IMG/VR virus record: IMGVR_UViG_3300025910_000016
Location: 1 to 41,281 of that record
Direction: 5' to 3' (one strand)
Length of the DNA stretch: 41,281 nt
Origin: a virus
Shown: in pieces, positions 221 through 41,279 of the stretch
How the letters are laid out: each line of letters starts with the position of its first letter
Position numbering within the stretch: position 1 is the stretch's first letter
Position numbers and translations under genes: made by a program
Notes under the pieces: model-generated
Told to the model about the DNA's origin: nothing
Database searches by the model: none
The model's input: the letters and a program-made list of their open reading frames with translations, nothing else

Positions 221-253
221 AAAAACGCCCGCTGTGCAAATGCACAACGAGCG
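221..253 (-). terminator. strong Rho-independent terminator upstream of the late/lysis operon
   Basis: On the reverse strand CGCTCGTTGTGC, a loop ATTT, and GCACAGCGGGCG form a 12-bp stem in which all positions pair (two G-U wobbles), followed directly by TTTTT. It lies downstream of the promoter at 316-344 and upstream of the holin-like gene. Late transcripts must therefore read through it, as in the lambda pR'-tR' arrangement. Confidence 0.8.
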
Positions 254-315
254 CTCATCCTCGTAAAACATCGGGCCCGCCAATTGCTAGCCCTGCGAAA
301 TATTCAACTGCCAAA

Positions 316-344
316 ATTTTAAGACTCTCGTTCGCGCTTGTCAA
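316..344 (-). promoter_or_regulatory. sigma70-type promoter P2 for the late operon
   Basis: On the reverse strand TTGACA (339-344) is followed after exactly 17 nt by TAAAAT (316-321). The predicted start is near 309, directed at the lysis, terminase, head and tail genes. No other promoter this good lies between the early operon and the holin-like gene. The match is five of six at -10 and six of six at -35. Confidence 0.75.
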
Positions 345-370
345 CCCTCTAAAAAGTTACAGCTGCCTTA

Positions 371-413
371 CTGAAAGCGAAAAGCGCCTGGGTGAGGGGG
401 GCACCCGAGCGCT
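371..413 (-). terminator. Rho-independent terminator at the end of the early operon
   Basis: On the reverse strand AGCGCTCGGGTG pairs with CACCCAGGCGCT (11 of 12 positions, one mismatch, one wobble) around a seven-base C-rich loop. An interrupted T tract (TTTTCGCTTT) follows. It lies only about 10 nt downstream of the start predicted for promoter P1 and should also end transcripts arriving from the early genes. Confidence 0.65.
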
Positions 414-428
414 CTTCAATCAATGTCC

Positions 429-456
429 ATTATAAGAATTATTCATTGATTGTCAA
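429..456 (-). promoter_or_regulatory. consensus sigma70-type promoter P1
   Basis: On the reverse strand a perfect TTGACA (451-456), a 16-nt spacer and a perfect TATAAT (429-434). The -35 box lies inside the last codons of the gene at 443-655. The transcript would run straight into the terminator at 371-413 and would be about 45-50 nt unless antiterminated. The same TTGACA-N16-TATAAT arrangement occurs at 17910-17937. Confidence 0.75.
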
Positions 457-655: not shown

Positions 656-893
656 TTTTTGCCCTCACACTGATTTCTTCCAAACTACTAACAAAAACCA
701 TGAATCTATCATCACTCAATCTATTGCATGGAATTCCACTGTCAGTAAAATATTCTTTCAATCCAGGCACCAAACTCTCACCGCTAGGCTGCGTAGGATC
801 AAAGCCAATTGAATGCTGTTCGGTAAATTCGATAATTTTGTATTCGTTACCAGCATCATCAACACATAGAAATTCATCAGTCTTTGTTCTCAT
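633..893 (-). CDS. small hypothetical protein (86 aa)
   Basis: A soluble acidic protein of unknown function. It has a strong ribosome binding site (GAGGAGAAGGA directly before the ATG) and overlaps the preceding gene by 4 nt (ATGA at 890-893), so translation is probably coupled. No catalytic motif is visible. Alternating hydrophobic and polar residues (YKIIEFTE, RFMVFVSS) suggest a small alpha/beta fold. Position near the end of the early operon is typical of accessory phage genes. Confidence 0.7.
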   Translation of the reverse strand: MRTKTDEFLCVDDAGNEYKIIEFTEQHSIGFDPTQPSGESLVPGLKEYFTDSGIPCNRLSDDRFMVFVSSLEEISVRAKNGQATIL

Positions 894-1126
894 TTCCTTC
901 TCCTCAACACTTTATTCACCAAATCCAACCCCTTCACTTTCAGTCTCATGCCAATAGGAGCTTTCTTTCCACGCGCTTCAAACATCTCACATGAATCTTT
1001 ATCGCTCACCCTCATGCGAAAAAAAGGTGACTGTGAATTGGAGCACCACGTTCCCATTCCTGGAATACCTGCATCCATTTGACCAGGCTCTCTCCAGTAT
1101 TTGCAGTTCGCACAGATCTGCTTCAT
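890..1126 (-). CDS. small Cys-rich, probably zinc-binding protein
   Basis: A 78-aa protein. CANCKYW near the N-terminus (Cys5, Cys8), WCSN (Cys28) and SCEMF (Cys46) give four cysteines spaced as in a small zinc-binding fold. The C-terminus is strongly basic (LRRRK). Its ATG overlaps the stop of the previous gene in an ATGA. Zinc-binding and basic character fits a nucleic-acid-binding protein. It lies two genes before the promoter-terminator array of the late operon, so a role as late antiterminator is conceivable but is inference from position alone. Confidence 0.7.
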   Translation of the reverse strand: MKQICANCKYWREPGQMDAGIPGMGTWCSNSQSPFFRMRVSDKDSCEMFEARGKKAPIGMRLKVKGLDLVNKVLRRRK

Positions 1127-1350
1127 CTATCCCTAGGTAACGGTGGCCAGATCTGATTTTCATCGATGTCATGAATAATGGTTCCTGCCGCGTTAAGAAT
1201 ATCCTGGGCGAGCTTATCACCCTCGATCGCACGCAAAACCAAATAGATCTCGCTCAGCCTGGAGAGGGGAATGTCACCCTCCACGCGTGACTGAAACAAA
1301 CTGATGCTGCGTATTGCAATCTTCTTGCGTTTGTCTTCTATATCAGCCAT
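1123..1350 (-). CDS. small hypothetical helical protein
   Basis: A 75-aa protein beginning MADIEDKRKK. I chose this ATG because GGAG lies 9 nt upstream. Earlier in-frame ATGs at 1392 and 1383 have no suitable ribosome binding site and would overlap the previous gene by about 50 nt instead of 8. The sequence is predicted helical (SRLSEIYLVLRAIEGDKLAQDIL written in parts as SRLSEIYLVLRAI and DKLAQDILNAAG) with no cysteines or transmembrane segments. Function unknown. Confidence 0.6.
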   Translation of the reverse strand: MADIEDKRKKIAIRSISLFQSRVEGDIPLSRLSEIYLVLRAIEGDKLAQDILNAAGTIIHDIDENQIWPPLPRDR

Positions 1351-1693
1351 TTCTTTGTTCTCCAATTCTACTATTCTTCCCATGCCTCTCATACAACCAT
1401 GCCAATGCTTCCTCGCCCGGATGCCACGTTTTGGTCGTTCCGCAGCATGTGCACTTCCAGGTCATATGCATCAACAGAGATCCCTCGATATATCCTGCCA
1501 CCTCAATATCGTTGGGAATCTCTCGATCCACATCCACAGCCTCACGGAATAGGATCACCTGCGTTGTGTGATATCGGATCGTCTCTCCATCCACCTGTGC
1601 CTTGGCTTCCACTCGCTTCAAGATCCCCAGTACATGGGATTCATTCGCATCGCACTTCCATTTCTTCAAATTCTCAAAGTTGCTACGGTCCAT
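1343..1693 (-). CDS. hypothetical protein with a CxC/CxxC-type patch
   Basis: A 116-aa protein beginning MDRSNFENLKKW. This start is preceded by AAGGAG at a normal 7-nt spacing, while an upstream in-frame ATG at 1711 lacks one. Cysteines occur near the N-terminus (WKCD) and in WKCTCCGTTKTW, which resembles half of a treble-clef or zinc ribbon. The stretch between is rich in beta-strand residues. The 5' side abuts palindromic element B. Function unknown. Confidence 0.6.
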   Translation of the reverse strand: MDRSNFENLKKWKCDANESHVLGILKRVEAKAQVDGETIRYHTTQVILFREAVDVDREIPNDIEVAGYIEGSLLMHMTWKCTCCGTTKTWHPGEEALAWLYERHGKNSRIGEQRNG

Positions 1694-1710
1694 AATGTTC
1701 TCCTTTGTCA

Positions 1711-1747
1711 CCTTCTCCCTTTCAGGGAGAAGGCAGGGTGAGGGTCA
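1711..1747 (-). repeat. palindromic C-rich element, copy B
   Basis: On the reverse strand CCCTCACCCTGCC leads into a perfect stem (arms 1711-1720 and 1724-1733, loop GAA). The element starts at the TGA stop of the gene at 1745 and ends at the ribosome binding site of the gene starting at 1693, filling the spacer exactly. Confidence 0.7.
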
Positions 1748-6411: not shown

Positions 6412-6439
6412 ATCGCTGAAAGCTGATCGCTATCACCTA
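6412..6439. repeat. degenerate heptamer block (4 units)
   Basis: Plus strand ATCGCTG, AAAGCTG, ATCGCTA, TCACCTA in strict 7-nt register. The last unit carries, in reverse, the TAG stop codon of the ParM-like gene. Confidence 0.6.
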
Positions 6440-7438
6440 CTTCTTGAACTTCAAAGCCATCTTATAGAGTCCATGGCTGATCGCCATCACAGGCTCATCC
6501 AAAACAATTGCCTTCCCCTTGAACTTATCTTCCAGATAAGGTCTCAGCAATTCAGCGCCACCACCCACCACAAGCACAGCTGCAAAGCGCTTGAAATATT
6601 GACCCCAGCGATTCTCGATCGCACCTGTCACCTGTTGTGACCAGATCTCCATTGCAGGTTTCAAGATATCCTTGTCGATCCGCTTCGTTCGAAGTCGCAT
6701 GTCAAGCTCTCCAAGCGTAAATAAATTGTCATAGCGTCGATTCACTTCTTCCAGCAACCGACGCACACCCATCGTCACACCGCCTGTGAACCGTGCAATA
6801 TCATCGTTCTCGCGTGTCAATAAAAACTCGATGGTATTGAAGCCAATGGAGAGCGCCGCGGTTTCATCTGTCCACAAACGGATCTTGGCAGCGTCACGTG
6901 CCATCTCCCCATTATGGAAATAGGTGTAATCGAACAACGCACCCATCGCCTGTGGCTTCAAAGCGATTTCAGTGACTTCCACCTGATAAGATTCACCATC
7001 TGCGGTCCATTTATGACTGCCCATCATCCACTTCTTCACAGCAGATTTGTATTCCTTCGCATTCGACCCGATCAACATCTGCAAAGGCAAACCAACCATC
7101 AGCGAAAGTGGACCCTTGAAAGCGCCATATTCCAACTGATACTTCGACAACGCCGCATAGAACAGTGAGTGGATCTCTGACGTTCCTGTCAACCGATCAA
7201 AGTCCTGGTTTTCCATTGGGACCCCATAATCATGCGCATTCTCGCCCACGTAAAATGATCCATATTCGCTCTTGATCTCAGTGGGTCTGCGCTTTGACCT
7301 GGCTCCCAGGATGTTCTCAGCCAAATGTTGCGTTCCATTGGCTGAAACCTGGCTCAACACCTGCACACCACCCTGAGCGCCATACAACTTATTTGCGCCC
7401 ATTCCCAAATCTTCACCAAAATAATTTACCGTAGTCAT
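6437..7438 (-). CDS. ParM/StbA-like actin-family protein
   Basis: A 333-aa protein with actin-fold landmarks. GEDLGMGANKLY at residues 8-19 is the phosphate-1 loop, SIGFNTIEF (about 196-204) sits where phosphate-2 belongs, and AVLVVGGGAELL (about 287-298) is the adenosine-binding loop. In phosphate-2 the usual Asp of D-x-G is Ser, so hydrolysis may be altered. Family members form filaments that segregate plasmids (ParM) or move phage DNA (AlpC of a corynebacterial prophage). AAGGAG precedes the start. Downstream are two small genes, one RHH-like; about 1.6 kb upstream lies a hexamer array that could be its centromere. Confidence in the fold is good, in plasmid partition moderate. Confidence 0.8.
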   Translation of the reverse strand: MTTVNYFGEDLGMGANKLYGAQGGVQVLSQVSANGTQHLAENILGARSKRRPTEIKSEYGSFYVGENAHDYGVPMENQDFDRLTGTSEIHSLFYAALSKYQLEYGAFKGPLSLMVGLPLQMLIGSNAKEYKSAVKKWMMGSHKWTADGESYQVEVTEIALKPQAMGALFDYTYFHNGEMARDAAKIRLWTDETAALSIGFNTIEFLLTRENDDIARFTGGVTMGVRRLLEEVNRRYDNLFTLGELDMRLRTKRIDKDILKPAMEIWSQQVTGAIENRWGQYFKRFAAVLVVGGGAELLRPYLEDKFKGKAIVLDEPVMAISHGLYKMALKFKK

Positions 7439-15218: not shown

Positions 15219-16154
15219 TCACATCGCCTCCGCAGCTGCACGCATATCGCTCTCACGTGCACGTGTGTAATAAGCAAGGATCACTTCTGGCCGGTCCCCA
15301 GTTTGCTGGCACACAGCATCGATCGCTGCCGGCAACTTCCAGGGATCGCCCTTCATGTAGGCATCCATGTAGCGCAGAACATACGTGTGTCTCATGGCAT
15401 GCGGAGTGGCTCTCACACCCGCCTTTGCAGCGATCAGAACAAAGCGCCTCCAGGCCTGGCCGCGATCGATCGCAAATCCCTTCTCATCGGTGATCAATGT
15501 TCCCTCGAGGGAATTGGGCTTGCGGTCCAGCCAAGTGCGGACCTTGTTGATTAATCTGGATCCGATCTTGATCGTTCGATATTTTTTGCCCTTCCCCCAC
15601 AAGTGGATCTCTCCATTTTCCAGGTGCAGATCGCTCAATTTCAAAGTCACAGATTCGCTGATCCGCAGCCCAGCATCATCCATCAAAAAGAAAAGAATGC
15701 TGTCACGCAGCCCAATCAACGTATCTTCACCAGCCTCAGCTGCAGCTTCAAGCTTCAACCGATCATCTTCAGCCAAATCACGCGGACTCTTGCGAGTAGC
15801 ATCCATAAAAGGGATCCACTCCGCAGGGTCATGATCGATCAATCCAATACTGCGTGCCCAGCTGATCAGCATTCGCAGGGATGCCAGTTTGCGGTTGTAG
15901 GTCGCTGGCTTGCTCTCTCGCTCGAGCGTTTGAAAATATGCTCGCAGATCTGCGTCATTCAGGAAATCCAGGGACCGTGCAGGTGTGAGACTCTCAGCGA
16001 TCAAACGCACGTCACTCAAATATGCATCCATGGTCAAATGACTGCGTGCACGTCGCTTCTGCGAAGGTGTGCTGTGCAGCCATGACCCAAACGCCTCCAG
16101 CCAATGCATGGAGGGAGCAACGGGCAATTGCGTAAGATCAATTTGTTGGAGCAT
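15219..16154 (-). CDS. tyrosine recombinase, XerC/XerD-like
   Basis: A 311-aa protein, the normal Xer length. An N-terminal SAM-like core-binding domain (YLSDVRLIAESL ... ATYNRKLASLRMLISWA) precedes the catalytic domain. That domain has DDAGLRISE (first Arg, near 176), WGKGKKYRTI (the beta-hairpin Lys), HAMRHTY (H-x-x-R, near 268) and VILAYYTRA, whose Tyr is the nucleophile. The last catalytic position, usually His or Trp, is not clear. Xer-like enzymes resolve multimers of circular replicons or integrate phages. A large serine recombinase is also present, so this one may act as a resolvase. It overlaps the upstream gene by 17 nt. Confidence 0.85.
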   Translation of the reverse strand: MLQQIDLTQLPVAPSMHWLEAFGSWLHSTPSQKRRARSHLTMDAYLSDVRLIAESLTPARSLDFLNDADLRAYFQTLERESKPATYNRKLASLRMLISWARSIGLIDHDPAEWIPFMDATRKSPRDLAEDDRLKLEAAAEAGEDTLIGLRDSILFFLMDDAGLRISESVTLKLSDLHLENGEIHLWGKGKKYRTIKIGSRLINKVRTWLDRKPNSLEGTLITDEKGFAIDRGQAWRRFVLIAAKAGVRATPHAMRHTYVLRYMDAYMKGDPWKLPAAIDAVCQQTGDRPEVILAYYTRARESDMRAAAEAM

Positions 16155-16874: not shown

Positions 16875-17411
16875 TCACTCGAAATAAATCCTGCCGCGTC
16901 CGTTTGCCTTCTTCGCCTCTTCGACGATCTGCACAGCAGGCTCAAGGTTCTCCATCAAATTCAGCGAAGTCACTGGCACAACCGCAAACGTTGCAGGGAC
17001 ACCGTTCTTGATAAATGTCTCTTTCAACCGCTCACAAAACGCATTCTGATCGACGGGCTCGCGGCTGCCATCTTCAGTGATGCACACAAAGATCTCATCG
17101 CCCGAATAGCGCTGACCTGCCGCAACGTCACTCTCACGAAGATTCATCAGACTCTCTTTGATCCTGGCATCCACGCCCGAATGGCCATAGCGCTCATTCA
17201 ACTTGTTCATATTGTCGATATCCAGGTAAATGATCCACTTGGCTTTCGAAGCGATCTTCGGCCAGACCTGTTTCTGAAAGCCTTCCCTCGTATGGCATCC
17301 ATAAGCGTCATTCCACGACATGGCTTCAAGCTGGGCTTCCTTCTCATGAAGCTGCTCTTGCAGTTGGTTCACCAATTCTTCAAGTTGTTTTTTGTTCGGT
17401 TTCTTAGCCAT
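16875..17411 (-). CDS. GGDEF-domain protein (diguanylate-cyclase-like)
   Basis: A 178-aa protein: a short coiled coil (residues 6-32, EELVNQLQEQLHEKEAQLE) and then one GGDEF domain. YLDIDNMNKLNERYGH (about 62-77) carries the metal-binding Asp and the Asn that contacts guanine. The signature is RYSGDEIF, i.e. SGDEI where GGDEF is usual. The two acidic residues needed for catalysis remain, and variants with Ser at the first position have been reported active. RESD resembles the inhibitory RxxD site but is 7 rather than 5 residues before the signature. No membrane or sensor domain is present. It is the first gene of the leftward operon behind the XRE-like gene. Confidence 0.8.
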   Translation of the reverse strand: MAKKPNKKQLEELVNQLQEQLHEKEAQLEAMSWNDAYGCHTREGFQKQVWPKIASKAKWIIYLDIDNMNKLNERYGHSGVDARIKESLMNLRESDVAAGQRYSGDEIFVCITEDGSREPVDQNAFCERLKETFIKNGVPATFAVVPVTSLNLMENLEPAVQIVEEAKKANGRGRIYFE

Positions 17412-19442: not shown

Positions 19443-19964
19443 ATGGCAAAAACAACATCAAACCAGACAATAAATACTGCAGACGATTTGGACGATGACC
19501 GCTACGCGTATGAGCGTGCCCTCAGTCTCATGATTCACCATACAGCGCTTCTCTGGCAAACATTTGGTTCTTTTCTATTAACTGAAACTGTCTTAATTGG
19601 TTTTTTGGGGGCAGCCATTATCGACAAAAAAGTATCTCAAAATGGCAATCTAATAATTATTAGCGGTTCCGTTATCGGTTTGATCATTTCACTTTTGTGG
19701 TATTCAACCTTCCGCCATAACTCTGGATTTTATGAACTGCGTTGGGCACAACTTAGGCGCATTGAGTCAAATCTTAATATTAACTTAGCACGGGAGGGAA
19801 GTAGGTTTTCTTCAGGAGATGGAATACCAGATGAAAATAACAAAATATTGCGGCTTCCATTGATTGCTCAGGCATTGCCGCCCCGTCGAGCTGTGCCATT
19901 GCTCATCGTTCTATTTGCAATTGTTTTTGTTTTGTTCATTGTTACTCAATTAGGATGGATTTAA
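19443..19964 (+). CDS. three-TM membrane protein (RipA-like topology)
   Basis: A 173-aa protein. Two TM helices form a hairpin (SFLLTETVLIGFLGAAII about 42-60; LIIISGSVIGLIISLLWY about 71-88), then a cytoplasmic stretch with FYELRWAQLRRIESNL, then a third C-terminal TM (VPLLIVLFAIVFVLFIV). The hairpin plus the W-x-x-L-R-x-I-E stretch resembles the RipA-type octameric membrane family and 2TM effectors of defence loci, but I cannot assign it to one. A role in superinfection exclusion is plausible by position. The 3' end overlaps the serine recombinase by 10 nt. Confidence 0.65.
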   Translation: MAKTTSNQTINTADDLDDDRYAYERALSLMIHHTALLWQTFGSFLLTETVLIGFLGAAIIDKKVSQNGNLIIISGSVIGLIISLLWYSTFRHNSGFYELRWAQLRRIESNLNINLAREGSRFSSGDGIPDENNKILRLPLIAQALPPRRAVPLLIVLFAIVFVLFIVTQLGWI

Positions 19965-21634
19965 TATTGAGCTATCTCCCTCCCCCATCCACTCTTCCTC
20001 CTGGCTCGATCGTAGATTCATATCGCCGCGATAGCGGTGGCATGCGCCAGGACAAATCCACTGATCAACAACTCACTGAGCTCGAAGCCTACTGCAAAGA
20101 GCATAACCTGGTGCACCGTCACTGCTTTGTAGATGAAGCCAAATCAGGCAAATCGACTGCAGGCCGTGATGACTTCAACCGCATGATCGAAACGTATGAA
20201 ATCCCGTCGAACCGCCCAGTTGGTCTTCTCCTCTGGAATTATGCCCGCTTTGCCCGTGACATCGACGATGCCCAGTTCAACAAGATCCGCTTGCGCCAAT
20301 GGGGCATCACCGTTCATTCCCTCAATGATCAGATCCCTGAAGGTGATTATGGCCGCGTCATAGAATTCCTCATCGATGTTTCCAACGAAGAAAAACGCAA
20401 ACAGACCTCCATCGATGCCAAGCGCGGTCTTTGGGATCTTGTTCAAAAATATGGCTGCGTGCCAGGCATCCCCCCACGTGGCTTCAAACGAGAACCTGTG
20501 AATCTCGGTCCCCGCCGCGATAAGACCGAACACATTGCCCATCGCTGGGTTCCGGATCCCGAATGGACTCCCCGAATCAAACGCGCCTTCCAGATGAAAG
20601 CGGAAGGCGCAACGCTCCTGCAGATCCACAAAGAAACCCACATCTACAACGCACTCAATTCCTATCGCACGTTTTTTTCCAACGAACTGTATATTGGTAT
20701 CCTGCACTTTGGTGGCCACGTGGTCCAACATTACTGCGATCCGATCGTGGATCTCCCCACCTGGGACGCGATCCAGAAGATTCAATCACTCCATGCGAAC
20801 CGTCAGCATGTGACCGCCAAAAACAGCCTTCACCCTCGCCGCAAATCTGAAGCTGCCACTTACCTGCTCTCAGGCATCGGATATTGCGCCAGGTGCGGCT
20901 CCCCACTCTGGGGCATGTCCTCCAAACAACGCTCAGGCTCCTACTACTATCGCTATGCCTGCACCAAAGCCAAGCGCCAGCGTGATTGTGATCTTCAGCC
21001 CATCCCAGCCCGCGCCCTCGAGGCTCTAGTGATCAGTGAGCTCACTCACTGGTTTGAACATCCCGATAACCTTCGAGACCTGCTCGAAGCCAGTCAACAA
21101 TTTGACGCACAATTTGCCACCAGGCAAAAGGCAGCTGCCAAAGAGATCCAAAAAGACCTGGGCGCTGTTCGCAGGTCTATTGTCAACGTCACAGATGCAA
21201 TCTCTCAGCTGAAGAACAAAAAGAGCAAAGCCCTCCTGGCCAAGCTGGAATCCCTCGAATCGGAAGAGACCGATCTCGAAACCCGCCTGGAAAAGGTCAA
21301 GACCCAAACTCCAGTTGTTCCTCCCCCACTCACTGAAGAACAGATCCTGTTCCTGTCAAAACGCCTGGTCACGGAGCTCAACACCAAGGACCCAGCCACC
21401 CAACGAAGAGTCCTGCTGGCCACCATTCACGCCGTCACCGTGGACCGCACTGGCAGCTACGGTTACTGCCACATTGACCTGAAGCACCGCCCACGCGAAA
21501 CCCAGGCCCCTGAAGAGCCTGGAGGGCAATGGTATACTGTATCTATATCTCGTGCCCCTGTGGGGGCACATCTCTATAGACGCAGTATTGAATTCGAATT
21601 TACGATCGCAACAAAAAAATCCCACTCTGTGTGA
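19955..21634 (+). CDS. large serine recombinase (probable phage integrase)
   Basis: A 559-aa protein with the three parts of large serine integrases. The catalytic domain (residues about 18-155) has SYRRDSGG, with Ser27 the probable nucleophile, and YARFARDIDD with the active-site Arg. The recombinase domain follows (about 165-300: VPGIPPRGFKRE ... LYIGILHFGGHVV). A zinc ribbon with a coiled coil completes it (CARCGSPLWG ... CTKAKRQRDC; AVRRSIVNVTDAISQLKNKK). It should insert the phage at an attB site and, with a directionality factor not identified here, excise it. I could not locate attP. A terminator overlaps its last codons. Confidence 0.85.
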   Translation: MDLILSYLPPPSTLPPGSIVDSYRRDSGGMRQDKSTDQQLTELEAYCKEHNLVHRHCFVDEAKSGKSTAGRDDFNRMIETYEIPSNRPVGLLLWNYARFARDIDDAQFNKIRLRQWGITVHSLNDQIPEGDYGRVIEFLIDVSNEEKRKQTSIDAKRGLWDLVQKYGCVPGIPPRGFKREPVNLGPRRDKTEHIAHRWVPDPEWTPRIKRAFQMKAEGATLLQIHKETHIYNALNSYRTFFSNELYIGILHFGGHVVQHYCDPIVDLPTWDAIQKIQSLHANRQHVTAKNSLHPRRKSEAATYLLSGIGYCARCGSPLWGMSSKQRSGSYYYRYACTKAKRQRDCDLQPIPARALEALVISELTHWFEHPDNLRDLLEASQQFDAQFATRQKAAAKEIQKDLGAVRRSIVNVTDAISQLKNKKSKALLAKLESLESEETDLETRLEKVKTQTPVVPPPLTEEQILFLSKRLVTELNTKDPATQRRVLLATIHAVTVDRTGSYGYCHIDLKHRPRETQAPEEPGGQWYTVSISRAPVGAHLYRRSIEFEFTIATKKSHSV

Positions 21635-33152: not shown

Positions 33153-34131
33153 ATTCACCAACAGGAGTGGGCACGTAACTGCCTCCCCACGTCGGATCAT
33201 TTACAAATTTGCTCATGTCCTTCAGGTCCACGCCACTCTTCCAGGCATCGAATCTTTGTGAACCCAGGATCTCTCTCTGTGTGGCTTCAGGTTGACCTGC
33301 GAACCATTTCACGCCGCTCTCCCATTTCGCTGCAGGGATCCCGATCACCACAGGCACCGCTGTGCATCTGCCATTGGGGTGCTCATCGAACTCTCCATCC
33401 AGGCTATCGATCAGCTCACCATCACGGAAGAGACAGCCCGGACAAACGCGGCTGTCATGGGCTGCCAGGCGCTTGTAGCCGCTCACCAGGCCGCTCTCAC
33501 GGTATTGTTCGAAGTTACCCATGCGATAGGATCGCAATGTCTCGGTCCGTGCCACTGTCAATGCCTTGTCCAACCCAACGCCGAATTCCTCAGCCATCTT
33601 TCTACCCACATCCGTTGGGTGCTTTCCAAGAGCCAGTCCCTTCACCAGTGCATCTGTCAAACCACTGACTGCCTCGGGATATGCTCTCGAAAGTAAATTT
33701 CTCAATGGGCTGCCATTAGCTGCATAACCAAACATGATCTCTAGCGATCGCACAGGCAATACATCGAAGCCAGGTATCACCACGCCTGCTTCGTTGTGGA
33801 TGATCTTCAAGGCTTTCACAGCATCCTGAATTCCCTGCTTCGATAACTCAGCCTGGACCTTGGTGATCGAAGTCTCTGCAAAATCATTGAACTTCGCGGT
33901 CTCTGCTCGAGCCTGGTAAAGCAATTTGACGTAGCGATCGTGTTTCAGCACCATCGCCTCGGTGACCATATTTGATTTGGAGAGCTCTGCCGCGAGTGCT
34001 TCCATCTCGGATTGCAAAGCCTGCTCCACCTGTAGCCAGCGCTTTGCCATCGCACGCATTTGACTCTGCTCTTTCATGAGCAAAGCTTGCTTCTGTTGAC
34101 GCAGGAACCGAACAACTTCAGGATCAGGCAT
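33136..34131 (-). CDS. minor head protein (SPP1 gp7-like, head morphogenesis)
   Basis: A 331-aa protein. VARTETLRSYRMGNFEQYRE, GYKRLAAHDSRVCPGC and DEHPNGRCTAVPVV are hallmark parts of the phage Mu F/SPP1 gp7 head morphogenesis family, including the H-D-S-R-V-C and H-P-x-x-x-C motifs. The closing TQREILGSQRFDAWKSG is also typical. It stays with portal and capsid and helps DNA ejection. Start overlaps the portal gene's stop by 8 nt. Last codons and stop come from a heptamer block. Confidence 0.9.
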   Translation of the reverse strand: MPDPEVVRFLRQQKQALLMKEQSQMRAMAKRWLQVEQALQSEMEALAAELSKSNMVTEAMVLKHDRYVKLLYQARAETAKFNDFAETSITKVQAELSKQGIQDAVKALKIIHNEAGVVIPGFDVLPVRSLEIMFGYAANGSPLRNLLSRAYPEAVSGLTDALVKGLALGKHPTDVGRKMAEEFGVGLDKALTVARTETLRSYRMGNFEQYRESGLVSGYKRLAAHDSRVCPGCLFRDGELIDSLDGEFDEHPNGRCTAVPVVIGIPAAKWESGVKWFAGQPEATQREILGSQRFDAWKSGVDLKDMSKFVNDPTWGGSYVPTPVGELANGE

Positions 34132-35515
34132 TGGTTACCTTTTGTGTTTTGCCATTTGACCCCGATTGTTGATTGCTGATAGTTGTCAGATCGCCAGCAT
34201 TGAATCTTCTCTCAGCCTCCAGCATTGCGTTTGCAAGATTCGTTTGCTTCTGCCTATCTTCATCAGCCTTATCCTTCACCATCTGATCGATGAACGCCTG
34301 GCTCTTCCCTTCTTCCCGCAGAATGGTGACCAATGGCATGCCCGCCGTCACGTTCAATTGCCGCGTCTGTGCTTGTGTGTATGGCTGCACCGTTTCAGGC
34401 TTATCGAACATCGGAGTGACCTGCTCAGGCTTTACAGTTTCACCCGAAGCTTTGAGCATAAATAAAGTCGCCTGTTTCCACGGTGGTGCAAAGCGATCGA
34501 TGCGGTCCCCAGCTTTCTTGTTGAGTGGCGATTCCATGGCGATCAGCGCCTCGCCTGAAAGATTGCTTCCAATGGAAAAGAAATAATGCTTGGGTGTTCG
34601 CGTGATCGAGCTGATCGCCGTGGCCAGATCATCGATTCCCTTCAGGTAATTTTCCAATGGCGTTGCATCGAACTGGCCCGCTTGAGTCTGCTGCCCAACT
34701 CCATCACCTGCCGGCAGATCCCAGATCTCGCTGGGTGCGTTCTTCAACTTGCCATTGATCGTGGCATTGCTGATCACGTACCGTTGCTTGAACGCGCCGA
34801 ATTCTGCAGCCACCATCATGTCAGTCAACAGCTTGTTGATTCCGTTTTGGATCGGGATCACGTTCTTCAGGTCACTCTTCACCTTGCGCTGGCCCAATCG
34901 GAAATGGAAGACAGGCACTTCTCCATAAGGGTTCTCTGCAGTGGGGGTCCTGGCAAGCGGCTCGAGCGAGCTGAACTCCGTAACGTTCTTTGCCTTGTTT
35001 CGGCTACGGTAATATTCAAGATGATCTGCATAATAGAGGGTCATGGATAATTTTTCCCCTTCATCCACCCACCACTTCGCTGCAAATTTTTTCTTGCGTG
35101 GCTCAGACTTGTAATAGAACAGATGCACCAGGCGAGGATCATTGTGATAGCCCTGCATCACATCATCTTCATCAGGCCAGGCAATGAAATAACCTTCACC
35201 TGCCACCAATGTTGCCTCGTGCACATCATCGCTCTCGAGCGAGATCTCCGAAGCTTCCCAGATTTCCTTCCAGCGTTTTTGGGCGCTGCCTTCCACATTG
35301 ATCTCACGCAGGTTGATTCGGTCCCTCGTTGAATCCACTACTACCGAGCACCAGTTCTCAGCGAAATACGCATCCAGATCCTTGAAGATTTCCTTCAGTC
35401 GCTGCGCGGTATATACCAACGGCTGATCACCGTCGTAGTATTTGAACAAGTCGTTATAGGGCTCCTGCTTTGCCCTCAATACCTTGAATGCGAGTTGCAG
35501 ATCCTTGTCTGACAT
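34124..35515 (-). CDS. portal protein (SPP1 gp6-like)
   Basis: A 463-aa protein with the order of the phage portal SPP1 family: LKEIFKDLDAYFAENWCSVV, VDSTRDRINLREINVEG, NGINKLLTDMMVAAEFGAF, ITRTPKHYFFSIGSNLSGEA. It forms the dodecameric ring through which DNA is packaged. Stop of the terminase gene lies 2 nt upstream, so translation is coupled. C-terminal residues (TTISNQQSGSNGK) are encoded by a short heptamer block. Confidence 0.9.
   Translation of the reverse strand: MSDKDLQLAFKVLRAKQEPYNDLFKYYDGDQPLVYTAQRLKEIFKDLDAYFAENWCSVVVDSTRDRINLREINVEGSAQKRWKEIWEASEISLESDDVHEATLVAGEGYFIAWPDEDDVMQGYHNDPRLVHLFYYKSEPRKKKFAAKWWVDEGEKLSMTLYYADHLEYYRSRNKAKNVTEFSSLEPLARTPTAENPYGEVPVFHFRLGQRKVKSDLKNVIPIQNGINKLLTDMMVAAEFGAFKQRYVISNATINGKLKNAPSEIWDLPAGDGVGQQTQAGQFDATPLENYLKGIDDLATAISSITRTPKHYFFSIGSNLSGEALIAMESPLNKKAGDRIDRFAPPWKQATLFMLKASGETVKPEQVTPMFDKPETVQPYTQAQTRQLNVTAGMPLVTILREEGKSQAFIDQMVKDKADEDRQKQTNLANAMLEAERRFNAGDLTTISNQQSGSNGKTQKVTNA
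34165..34185. repeat. degenerate heptamer block (3 units) inside the portal gene
   Basis: ATTGTTG, ATTGCTG, ATAGTTG in register within the disordered C-terminal tail of the portal protein. Confidence 0.5.
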
Positions 35516-35517
35516 AA

Positions 35518-37086
35518 TTAACCTTGATAGCTTTTTGCTTCCTTCATCATCACCACTCGCACTTTAAAGTGGCACGATGAAGAACAATCAACCCAGTCAT
35601 CATTCTTCCCTTTCGGGAAAGATAAATGCTCATCGATATATGGCTCATTCCAGGCTGCCCGTAACAGTCTTACCCCTCCGCCCTGCAGGGAGCTTTGCCA
35701 CGGACCAGCCCGATCTTCCTTATCGCCTGTGACTGGCTCGAACGCACCTGAGAGCCCAGCCTGTGCCAGCTTCAAATTCGTGGATTGTGCGCTCTCCTTC
35801 CCAGCTGCAGCTGGATCCTTCTGGTGGTACACCTTCAGCGCTGTGGGCTGCCATTGTCGTATGCTTGCCCTGGCTTCCGAGATCATCAAATTATCCCGAT
35901 CGTGCGGTGATAACTTCCCACGCACGGCATGCAGCACATAGATCATGCCATCTGAGCCCATGGCCATCAGCACGCCTGCGCTGTAATCGCCTCTGCCTAC
36001 ACTCGCAGCCTTGTCCCAGTACCAGGTGAACTTGCTGAGCGTCACATCCTGTGGGACCCGATCCACGATCGTGAAATACTCCCGCTTGAAAGATCCACCT
36101 TCACGCAGATAAGGCATCTGCTGATAAAGTGCAGCAAATTCATAAAGACCAATATTGGCTTCCTTGGATAAAAGCCAATCCCGCCCGAATCGGTTTGGCC
36201 ACAACGGGCTTTCATTCAGCGGTCTTCCAATGGGATCAGTGATCGGAAGATAAACGCCCTCTCGCATCTTCTTCTGCTGATCCTCCGCGTCTTTTGCATA
36301 ACAGTCATCCCGTGAGAGGGAAGGCATCATCACGATGTCCCACTGATCAGCCTGCTCGTTTTCGATCATCTGCTTCATCAACCGCCCCACCAGGTCATCA
36401 GGATGCCAATGTGTGAAGAAGAGAATCACTGCCGCATATTCTTTTTCCAAACGGGTCAAAGCACTGGACTTGTACCAATCGTCCACCAGGTCCCGTCTCG
36501 ATTCACTTTCCGCCTCTTCACGGTTCTTGAACAGATCATCCAGGATCAACAGATCTGCACCCAAACCTGTGATACCGCCGCCCACACCTGCAGCCACCAC
36601 TCCGCCTCGATGAGGCTGAGCTAAGTCCCAGGCAGCCACAGATCTGGAATCGCTTGAAAGCTCCACTGGCTCATTCTTCGAAGAGAGTCCTCCGAACAAT
36701 GCCTGGTATTTTGTGCTCTCGAGCAGGTCCCTGACCGCACGGCTGTTTTTGCTGGCCAGATCTGCCCCATACGAAGCCATGATGATCCTTGAATCGGGTA
36801 AACGTCCCAGCAGCCACGCAGGGAATTTGCGGCTGGCCATCTCACTCTTACCATGCCGTGGAGGCATGAGGATCATCAATCGCCCGATTCCCTCTTTGCC
36901 ACTGGTCTGCAGGAAGCGTGCTACCTGCTCGAGCTTATCGGCGATCAAAGTCATGTGCAGCGCATCTTCGAATCTGCCATCGGTGTACTTGCAGAAATAC
37001 AAGAACTTGGCCCTCGCCAGTTTGCGGCGGTCAGATTCCTTCTTTGCCTCACGCGGTGAGATCTGCGGGGAAGTTGCAGTCAGCAT
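35518..37086 (-). CDS. terminase large subunit
   Basis: A 522-aa protein. ATPase domain: LMPPRHGKSEMASRKFP (Walker A-like, about 71-87), RIIMASYGADLASKNSR, and Walker B LLILDDLFKNREEAES (about 180). Nuclease domain: YWDKAASVGRGDYSAGVL (first acidic residue) and the closing KGKNDDWVDCSSSC. The DxA and DD(W)VD motifs fit the RNase-H fold of Terminase_6C. It pumps and cuts phage DNA. Start overlaps the small terminase stop by one base (TAATG). Confidence 0.92.
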   Translation of the reverse strand: MLTATSPQISPREAKKESDRRKLARAKFLYFCKYTDGRFEDALHMTLIADKLEQVARFLQTSGKEGIGRLMILMPPRHGKSEMASRKFPAWLLGRLPDSRIIMASYGADLASKNSRAVRDLLESTKYQALFGGLSSKNEPVELSSDSRSVAAWDLAQPHRGGVVAAGVGGGITGLGADLLILDDLFKNREEAESESRRDLVDDWYKSSALTRLEKEYAAVILFFTHWHPDDLVGRLMKQMIENEQADQWDIVMMPSLSRDDCYAKDAEDQQKKMREGVYLPITDPIGRPLNESPLWPNRFGRDWLLSKEANIGLYEFAALYQQMPYLREGGSFKREYFTIVDRVPQDVTLSKFTWYWDKAASVGRGDYSAGVLMAMGSDGMIYVLHAVRGKLSPHDRDNLMISEARASIRQWQPTALKVYHQKDPAAAGKESAQSTNLKLAQAGLSGAFEPVTGDKEDRAGPWQSSLQGGGVRLLRAAWNEPYIDEHLSFPKGKNDDWVDCSSSCHFKVRVVMMKEAKSYQG

Positions 37087-37763
37087 TATTCAATCTCTCC
37101 ATCTTCCTTGGATGGATTCTTTGCCTGGTAATCTTCATAAGCACGTGCCAGAATCTCGATCTCAGCTTCACTCAATTCAGATGGATCCGTGCTGAGCTTC
37201 TTGGTCAGGTTCGCAACGAGCTTCGATGTTGGCACATAATCACCTGTCATTTCGAGATAGAGTTTCAAGTGATTGAAGAATTTGTAATCAGCTCCTGCAT
37301 TTTTCATCCCATCGATAAGACTCTTGAATGCATCGGAACGATGTGTCCACAAAGCTGCAGATTGCATCAGCGCAATTGTTTCCAGAATCGCTGGGTTTCT
37401 TTTTCGCCAGGTACTGATCACTCGATCGCTTTTCAAACCAAGCACCGTGGCCAGTTCCTGTTGCGTTCTTGGCATGCGTGCATCTGAGGGCGTGGATGCC
37501 CACGCAATATATGCCGCCTGGCGAAATGGCCATCCCTTATCTCGCAACATGAAATAATCTTTCAACCAGGCGAAAGTGGGCTCAGTGTCCTGCTCATGCT
37601 CGATCACCTGGCGTGCAGCCTCAGCTCGCTCACGGGCCAGCTCAGGAGAGATCCCTTCACTCTGAACTTCAGGCAGATCCAGCTCAAGCACCATTTGCTT
37701 CAGCTTCTCATCTGTCTCGAAGGAATCATTTAGATCGGGTACATCACGTTGCAAGATCGGCAT
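37086..37763 (-). CDS. terminase small subunit (phBC6A51-like)
   Basis: A 225-aa protein placed directly before the large terminase. MPRTQQELATVLGLKSDRVI and then TWRKRNPAILETI form a helix-turn-helix of the phBC6A51 type, flanked by FRQAAYIAWASTPSDAR. The C-terminus (LSEAEIEILARAYEDYQ) is the helical segment that contacts the large subunit. It recognises the packaging site, which I could not locate. Length is normal. Confidence 0.85.
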   Translation of the reverse strand: MPILQRDVPDLNDSFETDEKLKQMVLELDLPEVQSEGISPELARERAEAARQVIEHEQDTEPTFAWLKDYFMLRDKGWPFRQAAYIAWASTPSDARMPRTQQELATVLGLKSDRVISTWRKRNPAILETIALMQSAALWTHRSDAFKSLIDGMKNAGADYKFFNHLKLYLEMTGDYVPTSKLVANLTKKLSTDPSELSEAEIEILARAYEDYQAKNPSKEDGEIE

Positions 37764-39536
37764 TTAAACTTCCTTTACGACCCAGTCCATTGGCACGTAG
37801 AACGCACTGGGCTGCTTCTGTGCTGGACCGATGAACATCCAATCCTTTGGGCTCCAGAATGGGCTGTAAACAATTCCCTTTGGCGAATCGCCAATCGCAT
37901 CATCATCGAGATAAGCGCAGTAACAACGGTGCACCAGGCCAGCTGCCAACAATTCCTTCAATGGTCTTCCCCAGTCCGTTTTGCGGAAGCCTGCCAGCCT
38001 TGCCATCTTGCGTGTCCGCCTCTTATTGTCTGGAGTCGAAACCGTGAGCGTCTCAACAGCCTCCACCGTGACCAAATTATTGCCAAGTGCGATCGTGCCC
38101 CATTCCACATAATCGGATGGAAAAACACTGCTGGAGTGATGGTAATAAAAATAGATCGTTCCCCTGTTCTTGATCAGCCAGTTCATCTTCTGCTGCAACC
38201 AGGCACCAGGCTCAGGCTTCTTGTCTTTGAAGTTGTCCTCCACCTGAAGTGCTCGTAACCTGGCAACATCAGCCATTGGAATGCGCAGAAAATTGGACAC
38301 ACCACCCATTTGATTATTCGCTGTGTTGTATAAGCCCACTGCCTGAAAGTTCGATGTACCGATCAATCTCACACTCAACCCAGCTTCACTCACCATGATC
38401 GGATCGCCCCACTTCCTCACACGATACACATCCGCAGGAACTGGCAGTGTAGAAACTGGTGGAGATGCAGGAACATCCACGGTACTCGCAAGCTTGATGA
38501 ATTTCTCTAAGCCATCGGTTCTTCGCACTGCTACCCACTTGCCAATCAAGTAAGCACGGCTGGATGCTTCGATTCGCATCCAGACGTAATCATTACCAGA
38601 CCACAGCTTGCCATTGAACAGTTCTCCGCCATATACGTAATAGCTTGTGCTGGTATCCTCTGCCTTGAGTGGATATGTTCGCACGATCATCTTTAGAAGT
38701 GGAAGAACTTCTGCACTCCACAGCCGCGGTTCAGGTATGATCACGGGTCGCGCTGGAGGCTCCACCGCAACGGGCGGAAGGATCACATCGCCTGAAAGCC
38801 CAAACCGTTCATTGAATTGCTGCTCATCCCCATTGAAGTAACTCTGATCGATCTCAAGGCTCTCTGTCCCAAACTTCTCTCCCTCTACAGGCGTGCCAAA
38901 CTGCCAGAACAAGAGTGATGTCCACGGCTTGGGGATCGACACGTTAGCAGGGTTCGTGGTGTACCAGGCCAGCCATAAAGCGAACTGCGCAAACCAGTTC
39001 AGATCCGTGAGACTATTGGGGCTGTTTGCGATCCAGTAGTAATATCCTGTGTAAATCCCGATCTTCGATGCAGGCAGACCTGAGAGCCTCATGAACTCCT
39101 GCAGACAGATCTTCCAGTTCTGCCAGCCTTTCCACGTTCCCCCGTAGGATTCTTCCAGATCAAGGAAGTGTATTAACTCCCCTTTATCGGCCTTGACCCA
39201 ATTCCACCAGTTGGCGGCCTGGGTCTTGGGGTCCACGCGACTGTCATAGAACCAGTATGTTCCACGCGGGATCCCTGCTTGTTTTGCCTTCAGCCAGTTC
39301 TCATCGAACTTCAAATCCTTGGCTGATCCCTGCCCGCACTTGATGACAACGCCCTTGCCACCTGCCGCGAACATCGTTACAAAATTAATAGCGCCTTGCC
39401 ATTTGCTCACATCCAGGAGCAACACCAGGCGCAGGATCGTAATGCTAGGAACAAAAATAAAACGCGTCGCACCCAGCCACAACAAATGCCACAGGGATGA
39501 CCACGTCAATTTGAATCGATAGTTTCCAGCGTTCAT
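37764..39536 (-). CDS. GH25 lysozyme-type endolysin with long C-terminal region
   Basis: About 590 aa. Residues about 40-230 form a GH25 (N-acetylmuramidase) domain: LLLDVSKWQG (nucleophile-side Asp), VIKCGQGSAKDLKFDENW, LIHFLDLEESYGGTW (catalytic Asp-Glu pair), IGIYTGYYYWIAN and LLFWQFG. The first 38 residues are hydrophobic and basic (LTWSSLWHLLWLGATRFIF) and may be a signal anchor. After a Pro-rich hinge come about 360 residues with a possible SH3-like part (YVWMRIEASSRAYLIGKW), probably for wall binding. Start ATG 39536 overlaps the upstream TAA as TAATG, with GAGG upstream; the longer frame to 39566 is unlikely. Confidence 0.85.
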   Translation of the reverse strand: MNAGNYRFKLTWSSLWHLLWLGATRFIFVPSITILRLVLLLDVSKWQGAINFVTMFAAGGKGVVIKCGQGSAKDLKFDENWLKAKQAGIPRGTYWFYDSRVDPKTQAANWWNWVKADKGELIHFLDLEESYGGTWKGWQNWKICLQEFMRLSGLPASKIGIYTGYYYWIANSPNSLTDLNWFAQFALWLAWYTTNPANVSIPKPWTSLLFWQFGTPVEGEKFGTESLEIDQSYFNGDEQQFNERFGLSGDVILPPVAVEPPARPVIIPEPRLWSAEVLPLLKMIVRTYPLKAEDTSTSYYVYGGELFNGKLWSGNDYVWMRIEASSRAYLIGKWVAVRRTDGLEKFIKLASTVDVPASPPVSTLPVPADVYRVRKWGDPIMVSEAGLSVRLIGTSNFQAVGLYNTANNQMGGVSNFLRIPMADVARLRALQVEDNFKDKKPEPGAWLQQKMNWLIKNRGTIYFYYHHSSSVFPSDYVEWGTIALGNNLVTVEAVETLTVSTPDNKRRTRKMARLAGFRKTDWGRPLKELLAAGLVHRCYCAYLDDDAIGDSPKGIVYSPFWSPKDWMFIGPAQKQPSAFYVPMDWVVKEV

Positions 39537-39967
39537 TATTTTGGAACCTCTGTTTTTGGTGACCATTCGTATATTCTGACTCCCGTAACGCCTTGCACAA
39601 TCCCACCCAATTGCGCTACCTGCACTTTCAAGTCAGTGTTGCGTTCTTCTAAATCTTTGATTTGCACCAATAACTCACCTTGTTTTTGTCGCTCTTGATC
39701 TTCAATCGAGCGCCGCATCTTGTTTAAATCTTCGGTATGTTCTTTTTCTTTTTCCTCTAGTTCGGCTTTATAACGAGCCTCGAAAGTCTTGAAAGATGTT
39801 TCGTAAATGTCCTGTATTTCCTTGGTGTTCTTCACGGTGGTATCTGTGACATCTAAATCCTGCTTCTTTTTCAGGTTGGCATTGGTGTAAAAGAAATTGC
39901 CGATGGAAATAAGGATGGCCGCTAGCAATCCAAATTGATTGATGAGTTCAGTCAAAGTTGGATTCAT
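39536..39967 (-). CDS. TM plus coiled-coil protein of the lysis cassette
   Basis: A 143-aa protein: N-terminal TM helix (FGLLAAILISIGNFFYTNA, residues about 12-30) followed by a long charged coiled coil (EARYKAELEEKEKEHTED, KMRRSIEDQERQKQGE) and a short C-terminal cap. It resembles phage hemolysin XhlA-like or holin-associated proteins that sit between holin and endolysin. It could be the second holin or a regulator. ATG overlaps the HD-GYP stop as ATGA; the stop overlaps the endolysin start. Confidence 0.7.
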   Translation of the reverse strand: MNPTLTELINQFGLLAAILISIGNFFYTNANLKKKQDLDVTDTTVKNTKEIQDIYETSFKTFEARYKAELEEKEKEHTEDLNKMRRSIEDQERQKQGELLVQIKDLEERNTDLKVQVAQLGGIVQGVTGVRIYEWSPKTEVPK

Positions 39968-40896
39968 GACAACTTTCTAAACATTTTCAAAAATGCATCC
40001 ACAACTGTTGGATCGAACATCCTTCCGCTTTGCTCTGAGATATATTTCAGGGTAAATGACACGGACAACGCCGCCCGATAGGGACGGTCTGAAGTCATTG
40101 CATCGAAGTTATCCACAACAGAGAAGATGCGCGCAGCTAAAGGTATTTCCTCGCCCTCCAGTCCTCGTGGATACCCTGCACCGTCCCATCGTTCATGATG
40201 ACAATAGGGAATATCCAAACTCTTTTGTAAAAACAGAATCGGAGAAAGTAAATCAAACGCAATTTTCGGATGCAACCGCATACGCTGCATCTCAGACTCC
40301 GATAATTTGCCAGGCTTCAAAAGCACTTGGTCTGATATTCCCATTTTGCCGATGTCATGCAGATATGCGCCGCGGCGAATGTGAATCATTTGAGTTTCAG
40401 AAACCTTCATTGCACGGGCGAGATTTACAGTAAGTTCCGTCACACGTTCAGAATGTCCTTGAGTTTCTTTATCTCTAAATTCCAATGCCCGCGCCCAGGC
40501 TTTCAAAGTTTGGTTATAGACAAGCGCAGGTTTCAACATGCGGCGAATAGTTAGGATCAATTTGGGGAGTCGGTCTTTATTTACAAATCCATCAACTCCC
40601 TCTTCAAAGAATAATTTTTCTGCTTGAACTTCTGAAATCGTGCCCGTGACCAAAACAAAAGGTGTGTCATCCATTCCGAACTCATCCAGAATATCAATGA
40701 CCTTTTGTGGATTCAAATTCGGCATAGCATAATCACACAGCACCGCATCCCAGGGTTTTGTGTGCAGCGCGTTTCTGACTTCCTTCTCTGTTTCAACGCG
40801 TTCAGCTGTCACGTCCCAACCGTGACTTAATTCTCTTTGAATTAGCATTGCGTCATTCACATTGTCCTCCACCAGCAGGACGTGCAGCTCTTCCAT
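39964..40896 (-). CDS. response regulator with HD-GYP domain (c-di-GMP phosphodiesterase-like)
   Basis: A 310-aa protein. Residues about 4-118 form a REC domain: VLLVEDNVNDA (acidic pocket), AVLCDYAMPN with the phosphoacceptor Asp, FVLVTGTIS and VNKDRLPK with the conserved Thr and Lys. Residues about 130-310 form an HD-GYP domain with HSERV, YLHDIGKMG, LLKPGKL, LHPKIAF, YCHHERWDGAGYPRG, all metal and GYP residues kept. It should hydrolyse c-di-GMP when phosphorylated. No kinase is encoded here, so a host kinase must supply the signal. Its place in a phage lysis cassette, between holin-like and coiled-coil genes, is very unusual. ATG 40896 overlaps the previous stop as TGATG. Confidence 0.92.
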   Translation of the reverse strand: MEELHVLLVEDNVNDAMLIQRELSHGWDVTAERVETEKEVRNALHTKPWDAVLCDYAMPNLNPQKVIDILDEFGMDDTPFVLVTGTISEVQAEKLFFEEGVDGFVNKDRLPKLILTIRRMLKPALVYNQTLKAWARALEFRDKETQGHSERVTELTVNLARAMKVSETQMIHIRRGAYLHDIGKMGISDQVLLKPGKLSESEMQRMRLHPKIAFDLLSPILFLQKSLDIPYCHHERWDGAGYPRGLEGEEIPLAARIFSVVDNFDAMTSDRPYRAALSVSFTLKYISEQSGRMFDPTVVDAFLKMFRKLS

Positions 40897-41279
40897 CACC
40901 GCAGACTTGGAGCCTGGCGCTTGAATAAGAAGAACGTTCCGATCGAACCCACCAAAAGAACAAGCAGGTGGATGATGGTCAGAACGACATTGTCAAATAT
41001 AGATGGAATGAGTTTCAATCCAGCCTCGATCAGGGTGATGATGATTGGTGCAAGGGCAGCTGCAACTGCATTGGCATATCCCGATAGGTCCACCTTGAAC
41101 ACAACGCTGGCTTTCAAGAGTAACCACGTGGCACCTGAAGTTACGAGGATCAATACAAGCAATCGCCCTTCATTAGGCAAGCCAACGAGCGGATGCACAA
41201 AGCCTTGTGCAGCTGCACAACCTGAAAGCAATACTGCTGCCATCAAAGCAACCAGGAAGAAAAGCAAACCACGTTTCAT
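40896..41279 (-). CDS. holin-like membrane protein with lipobox
   Basis: A 127-aa protein, first gene of the late operon. The N-terminus (MKRGLLFFLVALMAAVLLSG-C) is a signal peptide with lipobox LSGC, so Cys21 may be lipidated. Three TM helices follow (LLVLILVTSGATWLLLK, AAALAPIIITLIEAGL, IIHLLVLLVGSIGTFFLF). Small size, TM pattern and position directly before endolysin-related genes suggest a holin, but a lipoprotein signal in a holin is unusual. The gene is cut by the window edge only in its leader: its ribosome binding site AAGGAG is found at 132-137. Confidence 0.7.
   Translation of the reverse strand: MKRGLLFFLVALMAAVLLSGCAAAQGFVHPLVGLPNEGRLLVLILVTSGATWLLLKASVVFKVDLSGYANAVAAALAPIIITLIEAGLKLIPSIFDNVVLTIIHLLVLLVGSIGTFFLFKRQAPSLR

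Follow-up and report, generated by a model that had tools for sequence, protein, structure and literature searches.

Unit 2, the second of two promoter-hairpin units lying between the early and late operons of this phage, is probably a conserved RNA off/on switch under which the virion and lysis genes would stay off until it is flipped by a phage protein, which may be a small zinc-binding protein. The mechanism that we favor, with moderate confidence, is a late-operon RNA attenuator in which the hairpin T2 would be the default stop, a phage protein, for which a zinc ribbon is the best candidate, would hold a competing antiterminator hairpin (AT), and polymerase would read through to the late genes; P1 and the C6U hairpin of unit 1 would be separate. 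What is known of late-gene control in tailed phages comes mostly from a handful of enterobacterial models, and if the switch works as read here, it would be a widespread RNA-attenuator answer to late control in probable phages of uncultured Chloroflexota.

The boundary between early and late genes

The window, the whole stretch of 41,281 nucleotides analyzed here, comes as a virus record of IMG/VR; its two ends carry a direct repeat of 127 b, so that the contig closes on itself. On the minus strand the order runs from the early genes through a promoter-hairpin-promoter-hairpin region and across the joined ends into the late genes. Like pR'-tR' in lambda, the region lies between the early and late operons, and the overall layout of early genes, promoter, terminator, lysis and terminase matches that of lambda. 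The genes and elements concerned are:

Minus strand, toward coordinate 1: early genes, with a primase at 12299-9306, a helicase at 5718-3733 and small genes down to 443
1343 to 1711, minus strand: protein with a zinc ribbon, called at 122 aa with an uncertain start codon; candidate trans factor
890 to 1126, minus strand: Cys-rich protein of 78 aa, the earlier candidate
429 to 456, minus strand: P1, TTGACA-N16-TATAAT, 12 of 12 consensus positions; the -35 overlaps the 3' end of ORF 443-655
379 to 417, minus strand: T1, the C6U hairpin, a stem of 16 pairs including one C.A mismatch, a CCCCCCU loop at 401-395 and a weak T-tract after it
316 to 344, minus strand: P2, TTGACA-N17-TAAAAT, 11 of 12 consensus positions; homologous promoters lie upstream of terL in relatives
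294 to 315, minus strand: P2 initial transcribed region, TTTGGCAGTTGAATATTTCGCA, conserved as ACAAnTnAATAnCTCCGCA (alignment A4); start predicted near 309 from the -10
273 to 293, minus strand: motif M, outer stem GGGC/GCCC, internal loop UAGCA / UGGCGG
247 to 264, minus strand: AT, putative antiterminator hairpin, ACGAG-GAUGAGCG-CUCGU; its 3' arm, 251-247, lies inside the T2 5' arm
221 to 256, minus strand: T2, predicted intrinsic terminator, core 254-226 as folded, 256-223 with an A-U and G-U base; U-tract 225-221
40896 to 41279, minus strand, equivalent to a start at 125 and crossing the contig end via the 127-b repeat: first late gene, a 127-aa membrane/lipoprotein-like protein
39964 to 40899, minus strand: response regulator-HD-GYP gene, after the first late gene in the late operon
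39536 to 39967: late-operon ORF between the HD-GYP gene and the endolysin
37764 to 39566: endolysin, late operon
37086 to 37763: TerS-like, assigned by position and as a conserved family among module contigs, not by a named model
35518 to 37086: TerL, late operon
34124 to 35515: portal, late operon, with head and tail genes beyond
19955 to 21634, plus strand: serine integrase

The series running from 456 to 221 on the minus strand, described earlier from the letters alone, is borne out by sequence, folding and conservation in terminase relatives, and the first late gene, placed about 100 nt beyond the second terminator, starts approximately 96 nt past T2. With at most one mismatch, the P1 pattern has two matches in the window, P1 and 17937-17910, against 0.05 expected, and the P2 pattern has one match against 0.16 expected; P1 is far above chance and P2, by itself, just mildly so. 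The match at 17937-17910 is an early promoter as perfect as P1, and is followed directly by a ribosome-binding site and gene, without a hairpin. Neither T1 nor T2 was listed by a consensus terminator scan, and both were detected by folding, with z scores of -5.0 and -6.0, respectively, and none of 200 shuffles as good in either case. T2 had been called the stronger of the two, which holds for the U-tract (a run of five T 3' of the stem, against only GCTTTCAG for T1) but not for stem energy, both hairpins folding at -22.7 kcal/mol.

Across terminase-related phage contigs the promoter-hairpin series is kept far more often than chance predicts. At least one promoter-then-terminator pair lies upstream of terL in 40 of 52 terminase-linked loci (63 pairs in 229,628 b), compared with 13 pairs in nine of the 52 loci on the reverse strand and five pairs in four of the 52 loci downstream of terL (210,061 b). 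Close phage records for the window amounted to short unrelated matches in an upstream gene, and the first late protein has no confirmed relatives. The closest relatives in cellular genomes, by terminase, are Anaerolineae (Chloroflexota) bins. Leader model R1 (of unit 2) matched none of 199 Anaerolineae-class genomes, so the host assignment rests on two Anaerolineae bins with related terminases, one of which has the leader on a prophage-like contig (L095/G001); the hosts of these phages are probably uncultured Chloroflexota.

Several other features of the phage deserve mention. It encodes an actin-like partition protein (6437-7438, minus strand) and a tyrosine integrase-family protein (15219-16154, minus strand) besides the serine integrase. 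It also carries two halves of c-di-GMP signaling, the late response regulator-HD-GYP protein, in which both the HD and GYP motifs are present, and an early GGDEF-like protein (16875-17411, minus strand) whose motif is SGDEI. The same leader precedes HD-domain or response-regulator genes in three relatives (L026, L167, L170).

The leader of unit 2

Unit 2, comprising P2, its leader and T2, is the constant part of the region. Two elements absent from the preliminary description, M and AT, lie in this leader, and in class-A relatives the order P2, first 20 transcribed bases, M, AT and T2 is kept. Alignment A4 comprises 16 of 24 listed leaders, the other eight having long inner hairpins or a different M. 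For M (helix 1), 95.5% of cells are paired and three of seven pairs have changed on both sides. Both arms of the outer stem change together, giving GGGC/GCCC, GACC/GGUC, GGUC/GACC and GUCC/GGAC, and an inner G-C pair becomes A-U when UAGCA..UGGCG becomes UAACA..UGGUG. The minimum free energy fold of the window leader has a hairpin at M. More distant phages have other types of M, for example a hairpin with loop AUGUAGUU (L037, L068, L072) or CUCC..GGGAG (L143, L167, L174).

The AT loop is GAUGAGCG in the window and AGAUGAGCGC, the consensus, in most relatives. For AT (helix 2 of the same 16 sequences), 81.1% of cells are paired, four of six pairs have changed on both sides, and 28 cells have changed on both sides compared with 9.4 in shuffled alignments; the covariation score is 0.362, against 0.157 shuffled and 0.023-0.081 for slid registers. 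In a first, free-form test the AT signal was weak, with a mean stem of 4.4 against 3.7. With a fixed loop range of 5-11 nt, a test devised after the motif had been seen, at least four Watson-Crick pairs were found in 31 of 40 modules, compared with 18% when flanks were swapped between phages and 22% when they were shuffled, and at least five pairs in 18 of 40, compared with 4.7% and 6%; six of 46 rows (L006, L041, L050, L072, L075, L077) were left out, the wrong promoter or hairpin having been picked or no module being present. The 40 modules contain 24 different complementary arm pairs.

Since the 3' arm of AT is part of the 5' arm of T2, the two hairpins cannot form together, an exclusion that sequence and covariation both show. 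That the late operon would stay off behind a closed promoter until something acts, as was first supposed, is implied by this conserved antiterminator/terminator pair. By itself the window AT hairpin is unstable when folded, and because AT is weak alone, something must hold it. The mechanism could then be viewed as follows. P2 would be an ordinary sigma-70-type promoter from which polymerase makes a leader of approximately 90 nt. By default T2 would fold and transcription would stop before the first late gene. The leader also encodes AT, which would compete with T2 via the shared arm, and AT would most likely be held by a phage protein from the early operon that recognizes M and/or the AT loop AGAUGAGCGC. 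With AT held, polymerase would read through into the lysis, terminase, head and tail genes.

The place of the module in the genome is fixed. A uniform rule demanding a promoter, an AT of at least three Watson-Crick pairs around TGAGCG[CA] and a strong hairpin, itself derived from part of these data, found the module upstream of terL in 30 of 52 loci, and in none of the 52 downstream, none on the reverse strand and none of 28 unrelated contigs. Another module rule applied to the terminase set gave 28 of 52 upstream, two downstream and none in reverse. The T-run directly after the stem is missing in eight of 25 T2-like hairpins of a set of loci fetched by the zinc ribbon (L267, L271, L272, L274, L275, L282-L284), so something besides intrinsic termination may be involved. 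At five of these loci (L267 15483, L271 2656, L272 2205, L275 8700, L282 11719) AT and the T2 hairpin are kept, with tails such as CTCGACGTTTAAGG in place of the T-run.

Some phages have more than one leader: two each in L170 (at 2361, before a holin-like gene, and 6297, before an HD-domain gene), L174 and L022 (3289 and 3843), and three model hits in the 67,683-b L176 contig (G375; 20532, 24091 and 56815). The leaders of one phage have a common M type in L170, L174 and L176, and several leaders with one M type per phage are what a trans-acting reader would need.

Sequences flanking the module include a palindrome, AGAAT-N4-GTTCT, just upstream of P2 and approximately 98-119 b before T2, in eight of 47 modules (L010, L042, L152, L157, L165, L190, L226, L004) against 0.5 expected; the window has none. 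The P1 spacer contains GAAC-N4-GTTC in L004 and L190, which we take to resemble the LexA box of some bacteria. Sequences like TAACGCAAACCGTTAG stand directly before the module in L012 (approximately 6450) and just ahead of P1 or P2 in L142 and L190, presumably recalling integron attC or transposon ends.

Unit 1 and the C6U hairpin

The preliminary description took the two units for one arrangement in duplicate, a view that does not survive comparison, since the units differ: unit 1 is a C6U hairpin that also stands alone in chromosomes and is missing before P2 in six relatives (L002, L007, L022, L028, L217, L226). In two others (L190, L227) the P1 hairpin has a different loop. The hairpin of relatives has a 16-bp stem, a CCCCCCU loop and a closing UG/CA, and its distance from P1 is near-fixed at approximately 50-55 nt from -35 to loop. 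Loop invariance was built into the pattern-searched set, as the pattern demanded TGCCCCCCTCA; when terminase-linked loci were searched with C5-C9, 10 of 11 hits, the window included, were a hairpin with a promoter, all with six Cs. Among 41 hairpins (alignment A5, no rows dropped, though L163 and L171 look like chance), 91.9% of stem cells are paired, 13 of 16 pairs have changed on both sides, and the covariation score is 0.912, against 0.222 shuffled and at most 0.220 for slid registers. The fifth pair below the loop is an A.C mismatch in 14 of the 41. Tails after the stem are mostly ATTTTAA-like, not a full U-tract.

Stand-alone copies of unit 1 occur at seven places in five of 346 Anaerolineae-class genomes, compared with one place for the reversed pattern; some have perfect stems and good U-tracts, and three are in one genome. 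These stand-alone promoter and C6U hairpin units (L181-L187) include one, L187, in which a small membrane-protein gene has the hairpin as its 5' UTR. As unit 1 is missing in some relatives and found alone in chromosomes, it counts as optional, distinct from unit 2, and looks like a tiny small-RNA gene. Rfam scans of the window, the surroundings of unit 1 and 11 loci gave nothing above chance, and the 6C family had no match in the window at the gathering threshold, around unit 1 at E <=10 or in the 11 loci at E <=0.5. The C6U unit is a second, separate RNA family common to phages and bacterial chromosomes and absent from Rfam as searched.

In the mechanism that we favor, P1 and the CCCCCCU hairpin would form a separate, optional unit making a very short RNA, and unit 1 may end read-through from the early operon. 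The weakest step is a possible small-RNA function of this transcript, exerted by its C-rich loop. The idea that the CCCCCCU loop pairs with the AT loop was dropped, at most a 4-bp UGAG/CUCA being found by eye.

The candidate trans factor and known systems

What might hold AT in phages of this lineage? The Cys-rich gene at 890-1126, put forward in the preliminary description as the first antiterminator candidate, has relatives in just three of 32 module contigs and was set aside. The gene adjoining the module was likewise rejected, as the neighbors differ between relatives. Clustering of 1,085 ORFs from module contigs picked out an upstream family of approximately 100-125 aa, with W-x-C...H-V-L-G and a C-x2-4-C zinc ribbon, whose window member is 1343-1711 and which is the putative holder of AT. 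Relatives of it are encoded in 23 of the 32 module contigs and in none of 16 unrelated contigs, and among loci fetched by the zinc ribbon alone the module lies downstream on the same strand in 25 of 31, with none upstream and none in reverse. Given these counts, the zinc ribbon is a better candidate than the Cys-rich protein. In the independent part, the contigs first obtained through the zinc ribbon, the module is present in 10 of 16; under a stricter rule including the T-run, the zinc-ribbon set gave 16 of 31 downstream, two of 31 upstream, none in reverse and two of 28 unrelated. The zinc ribbon occurs in five of 18 further terminase relatives, and all five carry the module (L062 by model R1; L069, L083 and the L080 contig by the rule; L053 by eye and, through its twin locus L282, by the rule). 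It is missing in nine of the 32 module contigs, several of which are fragments and two of which are long contigs with class-B leaders (37 and 68 kb); something else must read the class-B leaders. As almost all of these phages belong to one terminase lineage, part of the co-occurrence reflects common descent.

The protein and the leader also segregate together. The nearest zinc-ribbon relative shares the M class in 24 of 27 contigs, compared with a mean of 9.1 with shuffled labels and none of 5,000 shuffles as high, for classes assigned by eye in 27 of 33 contigs, six with other M types having been dropped. In the 23 contigs with both proteins, the nearest relative has the same M class in 22 by zinc ribbon and in 17 by TerL. 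Three phages of the GCU type, a class noticed together with the protein subtype, are mutual nearest relatives by zinc ribbon and not by TerL. It is this co-occurrence and co-segregation with M type that suggest the zinc ribbon as the best candidate trans factor, ahead of the Cys-rich gene. Its AlphaFold2 model (pLDDT 85.4) gave no clear match to a solved structure in a fold search (best PDB E 0.14, best Z 3.4), which is no proof of a new fold, and matched one unnamed viral model at E 1.2e-3.

More tentatively, it is possible, though we would not yet wager on it, that these elements make up a new class of phage gene control: a lineage-wide two-hairpin late switch with its own zinc-ribbon RNA-binding antiterminator, leader and protein types traveling together, often preceded by a minimal C6U small-RNA gene of a family found alone in Anaerolineae chromosomes. 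If the switch works as read here, the concrete candidate protein, consensus RNA target and natural protein and RNA variants would make recognition directly testable. Among open-license papers, searches turned up none that describes a leader or hairpin of this kind from phages of Chloroflexota.

How does the proposed switch compare with known systems? As with Q and pR'/tR' of lambda and phage 21, a late promoter is closed by a terminator just before the lysis genes, on the far side of the early operon. Conservation covers the initial 20 bases transcribed from P2, which would include a C-G step that we take to match the position of the lambda pause. One could imagine an antiterminator that passes from the DNA at P2 to a sigma-paused polymerase near +16, which would then resist T2; this explanation shares the map position of pR'-tR', and we regard it as unlikely. 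Q binds DNA between -35 and -10 and requires a -10-like pause site, according to the excerpt of PMC6606751. The P2 spacers of relatives fall into several sequence types, not one; some do form types, such as TTGACGCGGGAGG, but overall they vary widely. None of the scanned proteins (30 against Pfam, others against PHROGs) matches a Q family, Q proteins being diverse. Unlike in the lambda and 21 systems, RNA stems are among the conserved parts here and a zinc ribbon is the candidate protein; covarying stems such as M and AT fall outside the Q system as the excerpt of PMC6606751 describes it. The likeness to lambda Q drawn in the preliminary description therefore does not extend to the conserved features of unit 2, among which are covarying RNA structures, although the promoter may also hold a DNA site.

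Like HK022 putL, unit 2 has structured RNA immediately downstream of a phage promoter. Protein-free antitermination of this kind, with M and/or the C6U hairpin acting directly on polymerase, would suit the structured 5' RNA beside the promoter in both units and the lack of conservation of the upstream genes, but M exists in several unrelated-looking classes, and we think it improbable. The put RNA is approximately 70 nt with two stem-loops and is protein-independent, and the excerpt of PMC9378689 describes no AT/terminator switch for it. Unlike putL, the unit 2 leader overlaps its own terminator as a putative switch of that kind, whereas put acts on terminators far away (same excerpt of PMC9378689).

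The C6U hairpin resembles the 6C and B11 small RNAs of actinobacteria in the run of Cs in its loop; in those RNAs the C-run hairpin loop, which in B11 is the terminator loop, pairs with G tracts at ribosome-binding sites (PMC12395582, in the part available). Unlike them, the C6U unit has one 5'-end hairpin, compared with three stem-loops in 6C/B11 (PMC12395582, same part), and its target is putative. That both units are small-RNA genes, T1 and T2 being just their terminators and the late genes having other promoters, would fit the unit 1 copies alone in chromosomes and the C-rich terminator loops of such RNAs (PMC12395582, same part), but it has little probability, as unit 2 lies directly before the first late gene and its ribosome-binding site in relatives and an AT arm would be useless in a plain small-RNA terminator.

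On the protein side, one of 12 zinc-ribbon members searched against PHROGs matches 'translational regulator', at E 0.019 only, a family that we take to be Com. Com of phage Mu is a small zinc-finger protein whose target is a hairpin loop in the leader of an mRNA (PMC6483171, in excerpt); the candidate here is likewise a small phage zinc-binding protein with a predicted leader-hairpin target. According to the same excerpt of PMC6483171, Com is 62 aa long, has a single finger with four Cys and works at the level of translation, unlike the zinc ribbon, which has 122 aa as called and is a putative antiterminator.

None of the 30 window proteins searched against Pfam belongs to a named antiterminator family, and no ANTAR or CAT-type RNA-binding domain was found among the window proteins scanned (those 30 against Pfam); a host protein could serve instead. 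The target loops of ANTAR proteins are hexanucleotides. They have A1 and G4 in both hairpins (PMC3369936, in the part available), a loop test that the AT loop GAUGAGCG / AGAUGAGCGC fails, and M, unlike ANTAR targets, has an internal-loop motif. Unlike ANTAR or LicT leaders, unit 2 would control phage late genes. In the leaders recognized by ANTAR proteins (AmiR/NasR/EutV) and by LicT/BglG, the distal of the leader hairpins shares sequence with the 5' arm of the terminator, so that only one of the two can form (PMC3369936, same part); in unit 2, similarly, the second leader hairpin, AT, overlaps the T2 5' arm and would exclude T2. As a proposed attenuator, off by default, unit 2 is nearer to the ANTAR or LicT leaders than to the DNA site of lambda Q.
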